Below are positions 41,063-51,057 of a stretch of 64,000 nt of DNA, piece after piece (position 1 is the stretch's first letter; each line of letters opens with the position of its first letter). The stretch is taken from assembly GCF_029360705.1 (NCBI RefSeq), contig NZ_JARKMX010000002.1, positions 62,001 to 126,000 of the forward strand, read 5' to 3'. Both the position numbers and the translations under genes were made by a program. The notes under the pieces were generated by a model that searched no databases, was not told the origin of the DNA, and saw only the letters and a program-made list of their open reading frames with translations. The DNA comes from Paraflavitalea pollutisoli (lineage in GTDB: Bacteria > Bacteroidota > Bacteroidia > Chitinophagales > Chitinophagaceae).

Positions 41063-41395
41063 TTATCTGCGAGAAATATCTACCAGTTTGTAGATCAAAC
41101 CACCAATACCGACGAGCATCATGACGAGGCCAAATATGTACAGGCCGCTACCAGACTGATATTTGCTCATTTTCATGATACCACTAAAAATAAAGTAAAC
41201 GGATACGAGCATCGACATGATCCCGATGCCCTGAGAGGATTTGGCGCGACTGGCGACATTATTTCGCTTCAGGGCGCTGTTGACTTCATCGGTGGAGAAC
41301 TGCTGATTGAGGAGGTTCTTTCGGATCTCATCGAGCGAGAAGCCTGCAGCGATCTGTTTGTCGATTTCCAGCTGGAGGGTTTCATTGTTTGCCAT
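41063..41395 (-). CDS. Small hypothetical membrane protein
   Basis: A 110-residue protein. The N-terminal ~45 residues form amphipathic helices (LQLEIDKQIAAGFSLDEIRK, then FSTDEVNSALKRN), resembling the short helical domains that precede small membrane proteins in Bacteroidota. Two hydrophobic segments follow (GIMSMLVSVYFIFSGIM, and LYIFGLVMMLVGIGGLIYKL). I cannot name a family. The adjacent downstream frame at 40726-41055 may be related or co-transcribed. Confidence 0.65.
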   Translation of the reverse strand: MANNETLQLEIDKQIAAGFSLDEIRKNLLNQQFSTDEVNSALKRNNVASRAKSSQGIGIMSMLVSVYFIFSGIMKMSKYQSGSGLYIFGLVMMLVGIGGLIYKLVDISRR

Positions 41396-41486
41396 GGGTA
41401 CGGATTTATGGAGCTAAAAGTAAGCGCGCGGCCGCGCAATCGCAATAGCTGAATATTTTTAAGCATCCAGGCCTGTAAACCAATTA

Positions 41487-48671: not shown

Positions 48672-49616
48672 CTATCGGTCTACCTGGCGGCCAGCTTCTT
48701 TCTTCTGCTTGCGCATGACCCTTAGCCATGAAAAGAGAATGGCGAAGAAGGCCAATAAAGGAATGGCCCATACTACACTTGCCCAACGGAAAGTACCCTG
48801 CACTTCTTGCTGCTCGGCTTTAATCGCTTCGTGACGGGCATCTACGGTCTTTTTTAAAGAGGGCTCATACAAGGCTGCATAATCATAAAATGGAATGGCT
48901 TCCCCTCTGGAATCTGTCTTCGCTACGATGTCGGCAAAATCGAGTGCCAGTTGGCCAACCACCTGATCAGGTGGCGACATATAACCGGTTCGTTCATGCA
49001 ACTGATAGGCAATCTGTACCTTCAGCGAATCTGGATTACGCACAAAGACATATTGTTTATCGATGACCCACTGACCATAGTCCTTGAAACCAAGGTTGAT
49101 GACTTTATCAAACTGTTGCTTACCTAACTTTTCTTCGAGTATTCGTTCCTGAATCCAATCGGAACCATAGTTACCCTGCCGTGTGATGGCCTGTGCTTTA
49201 CGCACCGTTTCCAGTGCTTTATCAATTTTACCGGTAAACTCGTACCCCCAGGCAAGATGAGCCGCGATCGCATAGTCGTCGGGATGTAGTGTATACAAGG
49301 CTTCCAATTGCTGCACTGCTGCTGCCTTATCACCTGTCTTCAACACGATGATCGCATAAGTGGTTTTGCCACGCAGGTCCAGATTGGCGAAGCCAATCCG
49401 CTGCAATGAATCCAGTTGGTTTGTAAGCGAGCCGTCTGCCGAAAATTGAGCGCTCCAATAAGCAGGTTTTCCATGCTGCACATGTACCAAAGCATTGAGA
49501 TCGACCTTTTCACCCACCAATGGTACTCGTTGTGAAGGGGACAATTGAGCTTCAGCAATCGTAGCAACCTGCAAAAACAAACAAAGTGCCCAAAGGGTAT
49601 ACATCATTCTGCGCAT
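48672..49616 (-). CDS. TPR-containing membrane-anchored protein of unknown function
   Basis: A 314-residue protein with a signal peptide (MMYTLWALCLFLQVATIAEA). Tetratricopeptide-like helices lie in the middle (KAAAVQQLEALYTLHPDDYA, AAHLAWGYEFTGKIDKALET). Near the C-terminus is a single membrane helix (WASVVWAIPLLAFFAILFSW) followed by a basic Lys/Arg tail. The N-terminal part (VGEKVDLNALVHVQHGKPAY) is of unknown fold. The topology places most of it in the periplasm. No partner gene is obvious: the upstream neighbour is the repeat array and mfd is convergent downstream. Confidence 0.65.
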   Translation of the reverse strand: MRRMMYTLWALCLFLQVATIAEAQLSPSQRVPLVGEKVDLNALVHVQHGKPAYWSAQFSADGSLTNQLDSLQRIGFANLDLRGKTTYAIIVLKTGDKAAAVQQLEALYTLHPDDYAIAAHLAWGYEFTGKIDKALETVRKAQAITRQGNYGSDWIQERILEEKLGKQQFDKVINLGFKDYGQWVIDKQYVFVRNPDSLKVQIAYQLHERTGYMSPPDQVVGQLALDFADIVAKTDSRGEAIPFYDYAALYEPSLKKTVDARHEAIKAEQQEVQGTFRWASVVWAIPLLAFFAILFSWLRVMRKQKKEAGRQVDR

Positions 49617-49751: not shown

Positions 49752-49799
49752 GGCCTGGCTTAGAAAAGCCTGGCCGTTTGTTGATCGTACCCTTTAAAA
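49752..49799 (-). repeat. Structured repeat copy 1 (variant stem)
   Basis: Arms GGCCTGGCTT (49752-49761) and AAGCCTGGCC (49766-49775) pair with one internal mismatch around loop AGAA. The conserved 24-nt tail is at 49776-49799. Its stem sequence is unlike the other four copies, but the shape, arm length and loop size are the same. On minus the stem is followed by TTTATTTTTT, a good terminator signal, making this the distal end of the array. Confidence 0.85.
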
Positions 49800-49877
49800 A
49801 ATCATGAATGCGGTAATAAGTAGTTTATCGGGTCTGTCGACTGCAACCTGGTACGTGTTGTGCAGTTTTTGAAAAGA

Positions 49878-49925
49878 GCCATCCCGAGGAATCGGGACGG
49901 CGTTTGTTGATCGTACCCTTTAAAA
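49878..49925 (-). repeat. Structured repeat copy 2
   Basis: Arms GCCATCCCGA (49878-49887) and TCGGGACGGC (49892-49901), loop GGAA, one internal mismatch, tail 49902-49925 (GTTTGTTGATCG followed by TACCCTTTAAAA). On minus the stem is followed by TCTTTTC. Confidence 0.9.
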
Positions 49926-49999
49926 AACTTGAATGCTTTGATAAAGAACTTCCGGGGTTTAATCACTGCAGCTGTTACCAATTGCGCAGTTTTAAAAGA

Positions 50000-50047
50000 G
50001 CCATCCCGAGGAATCGGGACGGCGTTTGTTGATCGTACCCTTTAAAA
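50000..50047 (-). repeat. Structured repeat copy 3
   Basis: Stem and tail are identical to copy 2: arms 50000-50009 and 50014-50023, loop GGAA, tail 50024-50047. Confidence 0.9.
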
Positions 50048-50119
50048 ATTCTTCAATAAGTTGATAAGCAGTTGGTTTGGGTAAGTTGCCGGAATGTATC
50101 ATCACGGCGTTTTAGAAGA

Positions 50120-50167
50120 GCCATCCCGAAGAATCGGGACGGCGTTTGTTGATCGTACCCTTTAAAA
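50120..50167 (-). repeat. Structured repeat copy 4
   Basis: Arms 50120-50129 and 50134-50143 as in copy 2, but with loop AGAA as in copy 1; tail 50144-50167. Confidence 0.9.
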
Positions 50168-50330
50168 TAAACTCTTATAATATCTTGATATACTAATGAT
50201 CCTTTGTTACCAGGTACTGCCTTTCCTTGCCCGCCGGGTCTTTAATGCCATCACCACTTTCAGTAAGACAATCCAATCTCTCATAACCCTATTGTCGGTG
50301 ATAAAAATTGCTGTTAAAGCTTCAGAAAGG

Positions 50331-50378
50331 GCCATCCCGAGGAATCGGGACGGCGTTTGTTGATCGTACCCTTTAAAA
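50331..50378 (-). repeat. Structured repeat copy 5
   Basis: Arms 50331-50340 and 50345-50354, loop GGAA, tail 50355-50378. It starts 13 nt after the stop codon of the T9SS gene on minus and is preceded by the longest spacer (163 nt to copy 4). Confidence 0.9.
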
Positions 50379-50391
50379 ATCGGTGAATATC

Positions 50392-51057
50392 TTATTTAGA
50401 CTTAATGATCCGTTGGATGATCGTATCTGTGCCATTTGATACACGGAGGATATAAATGCCTTCAGCAAGATCGTTGAGTGCCAGCGTTTCGTTCAGCGCA
50501 GCCTCTTGTCTGAGTTCGGTCCTCACGGGCTGACCATTGAGGTTATTGATCACTTCCAGCGAAACAAACTTCCCCTTCCATTCTGCAGGTAGCGAAACCT
50601 TTAAGTCACTTACAACCGGATTGGGCGATACTTTCACAACCGGTGTAGCTTTGTGGTCTACAGTATATACTGTATGCTTAATCGATTTCTGCACCTTACC
50701 TTTCATATCAACCATATTGATACGATAATAAACAAATCCTTTAGGGACATTCTTCACGTCGTCGGAAAAGCTATAGCTTTTCTTGAAGCCAGTAGATTCA
50801 TCTTCTCCTGTAAACAAATAACCCACTTCACTAAAGGCTGTATTATCCAGGCTGCGTTCGATCACAAAATGACTGTACTGATCATCTACCGAAGTAGACC
50901 AGTTCAATACTACTTTCTTACCAGCACTTGATTTTCCTTGCTGTGCAACGCCGGACAGCGCGGAGACTATGAACATCAGGGGCAACAATATCCACCTGAA
51001 AATATGTTGTAGAATAATGGGTTGTTGGTCGGCAGAGAGATAGTGGTACGTTTTCAT
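50392..51057 (-). CDS. Small T9SS-sorted secreted protein
   Basis: A 221-residue protein. A long signal region (residues about 20-40, LLPLMFIVSALSGVAQQG) precedes a fibronectin-like beta domain (VVLNWSTSVDDQYSHFVIER), the common type that precedes sorting domains. The C-terminal ~75 residues are a type A sorting domain (VVKVSPNPVVSDLKVSLPAE ... GIYILRVSNGTDTI). It lacks any catalytic domain. Almost the whole mature chain is sorting and linker sequence, so it may be the surviving tail of a once larger surface protein. The structured repeat array begins 13 nt after its stop. Confidence 0.8.
   Translation of the reverse strand: MKTYHYLSADQQPIILQHIFRWILLPLMFIVSALSGVAQQGKSSAGKKVVLNWSTSVDDQYSHFVIERSLDNTAFSEVGYLFTGEDESTGFKKSYSFSDDVKNVPKGFVYYRINMVDMKGKVQKSIKHTVYTVDHKATPVVKVSPNPVVSDLKVSLPAEWKGKFVSLEVINNLNGQPVRTELRQEAALNETLALNDLAEGIYILRVSNGTDTIIQRIIKSK

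Follow-up and report, generated by a model that had tools for sequence, protein, structure and literature searches.

Tandem units of a probable FopS-like small RNA behind a type IX secretion cargo gene in Paraflavitalea pollutisoli

Enterobacterial sRNAs derived from 3′ UTRs, such as CpxQ, combine a seed with the mRNA's own terminator, and tandem sibling sRNAs, including Qrr and LhrC, comprise several copies with near-identical seeds, transcribed from their own promoters. To our knowledge, little is known on the sRNAs of Bacteroidota outside Bacteroides. The closest described system is FopS of Bacteroides thetaiotaomicron, presented as (i) a family of paralogous, multi-copy sRNAs, (ii) encoded at nine intergenic and four antisense loci and, in one case, derived from a 3′ UTR, (iii) partnered with mRNA leaders of outer-membrane proteins (SusC), (iv) bound by RbpB, a protein of the RRM class, and (v) deposited in Rfam (PMC11697453).

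The window analysed here comprises 64,000 nt of the Paraflavitalea pollutisoli genome (contig NZ_JARKMX010000002.1, positions 62,001 to 126,000), and coordinates refer to it unless another contig is named. An array at 49752-50378 displays, as minus-strand RNA, five copies of a unit formed by a core and a hairpin. Read in that direction, each unit runs from an AU-rich stretch through the 24-nt core UUUUAAAGGGUACGAUCAACAAAC, which adjoins a 24-nt hairpin of 10 stem positions and a 4-nt loop, into a U-rich stretch. Copy 5, the first on the RNA strand, spans 50331..50378 (core 50355-50378, hairpin 50331-50354), followed by copy 4 at 50120..50167 (core 50144-50167, hairpin 50120-50143), copy 3 at 50000..50047 (core 50024-50047, hairpin 50000-50023), copy 2 at 49878..49925 (core 49902-49925, hairpin 49878-49901), and copy 1, the last, at 49752..49799 (core 49776-49799, hairpin 49752-49775), which carries a distinct stem. 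Copy-to-copy spacings, counted from copy 1 to copy 5, are 126, 122, 120, and 211, the spacers between the tandem copies have diverged, and the 24-nt core, which as a tail reads GTTTGTTGATCGTACCCTTTAAAA on the plus strand, is the same in all five. The first core begins 13 nt past the stop codon of a gene on the same strand (50392..51057, minus) encoding a 221-aa protein with a C-terminal T9SS sorting domain (PF18962, above the curated cut-off), in agreement with the sequence-only reading, which had placed an array with an invariant tail in the 3′ region of a T9SS gene. The next gene downstream (48672..49616, minus, 314 aa) shows weak TPR matches below curated cut-offs and is probably a bystander, since other genera carry other genes at this place.

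A single stem is common to copies 2-5, with one base different in copy 4, whereas copy 1 displays another stem with one mismatch, as had been described from the sequence. Written as minus-strand RNA, the stems of copies 2-5 comprise 10 base pairs, all paired, including one G-U that corresponds to A-C on the plus strand, and that of copy 1 contains one A-A mismatch. The minus-strand folds of the five copies range from -16 to -20.6 kcal/mol (z from -2.6 to -3.4); among the three copies tried on the plus strand, copies 2 and 5 fold more weakly than on the minus strand (-17.8 and -18.4), whereas copy 1 folds better (-18.2), owing to its flanking bases. A U-rich 3′ flank of the hairpins is found on the minus strand, with a weaker U tract in some copies. 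The minus strand is therefore the likely RNA strand, given the G-U pair in the stems of copies 2-5 and the U tract, and the strand assignment of the earlier reading holds. Each unit thus displays a GC-rich hairpin and then a U tract, as in an intrinsic terminator.

We consider it probable that the array comprises several copies of one FopS-like trans-acting sRNA, here called family A, likely released from the 3′ end of the T9SS-cargo mRNA and pairing with the leaders of other mRNAs. Each unit would consist of a single-stranded seed of about 21-24 nt, UUUUAAAGGGUACGAUCAACAA, and an intrinsic-terminator hairpin.

Exact cores occur in the genome of the window at the array locus only, and a search tolerating up to 3 mismatches adds a single site without a hairpin. 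The array is kept at the same locus in 5/5 genus genomes, with 3-5 copies each, and a reversed control pattern has no match in any of the five; the array is therefore not a chance pattern. These data bear on the suggestion, raised in the earlier reading, of a REP-like or other mobile hairpin repeat. The tandem copies with diverged spacers, and the variation in copy number within the genus, would fit such a repeat. Nevertheless, the single locus is retained in all five congeners, the stem of copies 2-5 recurs at one other place only and there without a core, and the genome-wide dispersed copies that characterize REP/BIME elements are not seen in the genome of the window or in the genus genomes, so that this origin has a next to negligible probability.

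Across the family, a 23-mer of the core with up to 3 mismatches is matched in 41 of 294 genomes, five of which are judged chance and left out (G062, G013, G071, G261, and G044). The remaining 36 are judged real, with arrays of 1-5 copies, eight of them kept on the core match alone (G006, G105, G177, G039, G130, G196, G243, and G282); the copies sought in related genomes have thus been found. An exact scan for an 18-nt core across 84,980 species returns 82 stretches, listed as 80 loci, comprising (i) 74 loci of the element, (ii) one target-like site (L059), and (iii) five matches inside ORFs of other taxa, by title Oligoflexia, an unnamed bacterium, Aquimarina, Flavobacterium, and Omnitrophus. 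The titles of the 74 element loci read Chitinophagaceae, Chitinophagales, Sphingobacteriales, Bacteroidota, or a genus, the genera including Niastella, Paraflavitalea, Longitalea, Flavihumibacter, Puia, Pinibacter, and Pseudoflavitalea; a hairpin is seen by eye at 72 of them, the other two being cut by the end of the stretch. The exact scan selects for core identity, and the invariance of the core is judged from the mismatch-tolerant 23-mer search, in which mismatches fall mostly in the first 5 bases.

Some candidates were discarded. Matches in G001:C2, inside an ORF, and in L049, coding-looking by eye, were dropped as members of family A. An apparent enrichment of the 10-mer GATCGTACCC in the genome of the window (48 matches) was likewise rejected because the reversed control contains CTAG, hence is unfair; among the 30 loci inspected, 5 belong to the array, and ORFs account for 24 of the remaining 25. 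A search of the phylum with the model R1 gives a match in 19/296 genomes, and the few matches inspected outside the family are terminator-like hairpins without the core, none of which was counted.

The sequence-only reading had also proposed selection on RNA structure, from a pattern that included the deviating stem of copy 1. That stem, GGCCAGGC...GCCAGGCC, is the last-copy stem in 5/5 genus genomes, with one base different in one genome, and is therefore an old class, not a fresh compensatory change. The window's five copies alone are weak evidence of covariation, and the family-wide comparison supplies it. The comparison set comprises 125 distinct copies, reduced to 100 distinct units and 68 distinct hairpins, after 9 copies were dropped at ends, 43 duplicates removed, and 8 loci set aside. 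Of the 100 units, 94 have UUCU, GUCU, or UUCC as their loop. Across the 68 hairpins, which were chosen by folding and are to that extent biased toward pairing, 94.7% of the cells are paired, double changes occur at 9 of 10 positions, and the covariation score is 0.765, compared to 0.207 for shuffled controls and at most 0.206 for slid registers. Most pairs occur as several types (GC, CG, UA, and AU). Selection on structure is thus upheld by the 68 hairpins of the family.

None of the Rfam 15 families, Flavo-1 included if in the set, explains the array: no family reaches its gathering score in the window, the same holds at seven related loci, one tRNA excepted, and a search by E-value gives three unrelated weak matches only. 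Among the top-ranked publications in open-licence literature, none was found that concerns regulatory RNAs of type IX secretion, which is not proof of absence from print. The family-A element was not found in that literature either, the accessible parts of PMC11697453 and PMC8040213 included.

The genomic context was suggested earlier as a check on the relation of the hairpins to gene ends, and the answer is divided: a sense ORF ends at most 60 nt upstream of the element at 31 of the 74 loci, and none does at 43 by the ORF caller, five of these lying at a locus edge. Release from a cargo mRNA may accordingly not be general, as those 43 loci suggest. Among the 31 upstream genes, a T9SS sorting domain is found in 18 by Pfam and in 17 by NCBIfam. 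In genus g72, a second family-A locus with the variant core UUUUUAAGGGUACGAUCAAUAACG lies behind a gene end that by eye resembles a T9SS sorting domain (L227, L228, L229, L231, and L234). As a separate observation, a palindrome-like element, GTTTATANNATAAAC, which may be an operator, occurs just 3′ of single-copy family-A genes in L053, L060, L067, L080, and L106, and the next gene resembles by eye that of a TonB-dependent receptor in L053, L056, L120, and L126.

In the window, the units would most likely be made as the 3′ ends of the upstream T9SS-cargo mRNA. A TAnnTTTG box is found in the 60 nt upstream of 0/125 family-A copies, and when one mismatch to the -7 box is allowed no offset exceeds 3/125, except one that overlaps the core edge. 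An AU-rich run precedes the seed in family-A copies and, together with the lack of a canonical Bacteroidota -7 box upstream, favours release from the 3′ end of the cargo mRNA in the window. Serial, partly leaky terminators, combined with cleavage within the AU-rich run 5′ of the seed, would release the units; transcripts of the later copies should be scarce unless these terminators leak or there are promoters that were not seen. The copy number would then set the dose.

The same arrangement might be accounted for by a serial 3′-end module, in which the core binds an RNA-binding or processing protein, for instance of the RRM class, and the role of the hairpins is confined to ending or protecting the T9SS-cargo mRNA, with no antisense targets. 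The frequency of T9SS genes among the near upstream genes speaks in its favour, as 3′-end coupling is common, and RRM proteins are encoded in 6/6 genomes tested (5-12 matches each). It is, on the other hand, at odds with the 43 loci that have no near upstream ORF end, and it leaves unexplained both the complements of the core in mRNA leaders and the match of a second seed, that of family B, to the leader of an HExxH protein, described below; we regard it as unlikely. The sequence-only reading had likewise seen serial terminator or attenuator modules with a conserved recognition sequence. The terminator-like hairpins are borne out, whereas the recurrence of the core's complement in mRNA leaders makes an antisense seed a better reading of the core than a protein-recognition or attenuator site.

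The trans-acting sRNA would pair through its seed with TTGATCGTACCC sites, located in mRNA leaders of secreted and secretion-related proteins, and this pairing would alter the translation or stability of the targets. A search for this reverse complement of the core covered 37 genomes considered to be carriers of family A, all non-array places being inspected except G123:C110. The 61 distinct non-array sites comprise (i) 36 inside ORFs, a chance-like share, (ii) 7 further sRNA copies, and (iii) 18 intergenic sites. Eleven of the 18 lie at most 150 nt before the sense start of an ORF of at least 80 aa, ten of them at 54-83 nt and one at 134 nt; of the remainder, one lies 243 nt before a start, and six are a leader associated with PF04308, a gene that we take to be ykuK, some 33-50 nt before a short ORF. 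At one of the 18 sites (L259), an antisense start falls within 150 nt, although the sense start is closer; at L199, in the ykuK leader group, the nearest ORF start is antisense, at 313 nt, compared to 353 nt for the sense start.

The intergenic sites fall into eight gene groups, namely (i) a secreted protein of 525 aa that bears an HExxH motif, preceded by tandem sites in G006 and G227, with a weak T9SS-tail match below the curated cut-off and no peptidase family found for it; (ii) a leader found before the gene of a 152-aa secreted protein and, as a relic, before ykuK; (iii) a GDSL-like protein, with a Pfam match below the cut-off and a T9SS-like tail by eye only; (iv) GldM, in two genomes and well supported in Pfam; (v) a SusC-like receptor with a Plug domain; and (vi-viii) a response regulator, a creatininase-like protein, and a UbiD-like protein, all three named by eye. 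Only GldM is firm as regards the T9SS nature of the predicted targets, and the sharing of most candidate sites is restricted to one or two genera. In genus g3, the leader of the 152-aa gene holds a site of 9-15 nt in 5/5 genomes. In the window's genus, the homologous leader lies 310-406 nt before ykuK and keeps 12 nt invariant in 5/5 genomes between diverged flanks, and the HExxH and 152-aa genes, which lie 5′ of ykuK in g3, are not seen there. The ykuK leader of G294 displays a 23-nt match to the seed complement, and in 25 other family-A genomes no match longer than 9 nt occurs within 900 nt before ykuK. The GDSL-like gene carries sites of 16 nt in G001 and 12 nt in G002, and, at the corresponding position, of 8 and 7 nt at two paralogues in G004; no site is found in G003, and the gene is absent from G000.

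Duplexes at eight of the sites range from -23.5 to -34.0 kcal/mol, whereas 500 shuffles of one leader average -7.8 kcal/mol and reach -17.9 kcal/mol at best, the shuffles being of single letters and not dinucleotides. At the HExxH leader, seed A beats all 300 shuffles in 3 of 14 family-A genomes (G006, G227, and G288) and seed B does so in G098 and G288, with G213 and G123 left out of the test because their gene starts could not be located or were incorrect. Within these limits, the seed possesses the conserved complementarity to mRNA leaders that characterizes a trans-acting base-pairing sRNA. The sequence shows the anatomy, conservation, covariation, and complementarity, whereas the transcription and processing of family A, its pairing with targets in vivo, and any regulatory effect are inferred; binding near the 5′ end of a leader would most simply lower translation or stability.

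A DNA operator, in which the 12-nt word is a transcription-factor site present both in promoters and in the array, would account for the clustering of the intergenic sites upstream of genes and for a B-type site that adjoins, by eye, a possible -33 box at ykuK. Several observations conflict with it. The site of the GDSL-like gene starts 15-17 nt after a TAnnTTYG -7 box (by eye) and is therefore placed inside the transcript, and the gldM site sits 3′ of the preceding gene's stop codon and 5′ of gldM. The length of the shared stretch is variable (9 to 23 nt), as expected of pairing, and every occurrence of the word in the array is coupled to a terminator hairpin, on a single strand. We consider such an operator very unlikely.

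The array might also act mainly as a decoy or sponge that titrates other RNAs and does not act on mRNAs. Its multiple copies are compatible with this role, as is the ykuK leader of the window's genus, which could itself be a sponge because its 12 nt are kept though an ORF of only 17-35 aa follows, in place of the 152-aa gene of the second genus. Titration is nonetheless very unlikely as the main role, since the A and B seeds are alike and not complementary, so that A cannot sponge B by pairing, and since 11 of the 18 intergenic sites precede an ORF of at least 80 aa within 150 nt. The leader concerned lies in the window's own genome at G000:C15:4092235 (L025), and in G001-G004 at the corresponding place; what is left there is the leader, with the sRNA site, and an ORF of 17-35 aa.

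A covariance-model search inside the family led to a sister RNA, family B, which comprises AGUUUUCAUAGGGUACGGAUUAAAAACGGGCC and a hairpin and is found in 38 of 60 family genomes, the window's genome included, where its copy (L348) lies in G000:C10 near 58323, 3.7 kb left of the window. Compared to family A, family B is freestanding with its own promoter, canonical-looking in 41 sequences (TTTG...TAccTTTa); in many genomes it adjoins a gene resembling tatD by eye. The 73 sites of the family-B complement comprise 41 sRNA copies (36 recognized by the terminator test and five, L299, L301, L322, L328, and L343, by the core), 20 sites in ORFs, and 12 intergenic sites; at 11 of these 12 a sense start follows within 150 nt, and at none is an antisense start close by. 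At the HExxH leader, the family-B seed beats at least 299 of 300 letter shuffles in 11 of 16 family-A-negative genomes; the mean over the 16 is -26.0 kcal/mol, compared to -15.8 for the reversed seed and -8.6 for its complement; among 100 shuffled family-B seeds, the best gives -16.9 kcal/mol. Family B is present in 15 of these 16 genomes and was not found in G016, which is incomplete. The B-type sites in ykuK leaders of family-A-negative genomes lie, by eye, just before a possible -33 box and may thus be outside the mRNA. Judged by sequence, family B is the more widespread paralogue and appears to share a target gene with family A. Inside the window, AATCCGTACCC at 41396-41406 (minus) is complementary to the family-B seed and lies immediately before the start codon (ATG) of an ORF of 110 aa (41063-41395, minus), which may be a target of family B.

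More tentatively, the two paralogous families might form a Chitinophagaceae RNA regulon for secretion, in which arrays in the 3′ UTRs of T9SS-cargo mRNAs feed back on secreted proteins and gldM, and in which seed and leader sites have been switched together between clades (A and B). We rate this wider scheme as doubtful because the T9SS nature of the targets is weak outside GldM. The seed, the matched leaders, and the natural difference in seed and target between clades provide a directly testable system, and the array suggests an unusual form of gene, with serial terminators, each of which may yield a regulator.

Family A resembles FopS (PMC11697453) in being multi-copy, in having a conserved single-stranded 5′ segment ahead of a terminator hairpin, and in the RRM proteins encoded in the six genomes tested. 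It differs from FopS in that (i) its copies stand in tandem and not at separate loci, (ii) no canonical promoter is seen among the 125 copies, (iii) no Rfam 15 family, FopS included if in the set, reaches its gathering score at the array, and the bacterial family is a different one, and (iv) its predicted targets include gldM and secreted proteins.

Family A likewise recalls the sRNAs of the CpxQ type in joining a seed to the terminator of an mRNA, probably freed by cleavage in the AU-rich stretch, and departs from them in having several copies in series behind one gene and no known dependence on Hfq. Near-identical seeds in several copies are, on the other hand, a feature shared with Qrr and LhrC, from which the present system differs in that a promoter is clear only in the paralogous family B and not in family A.
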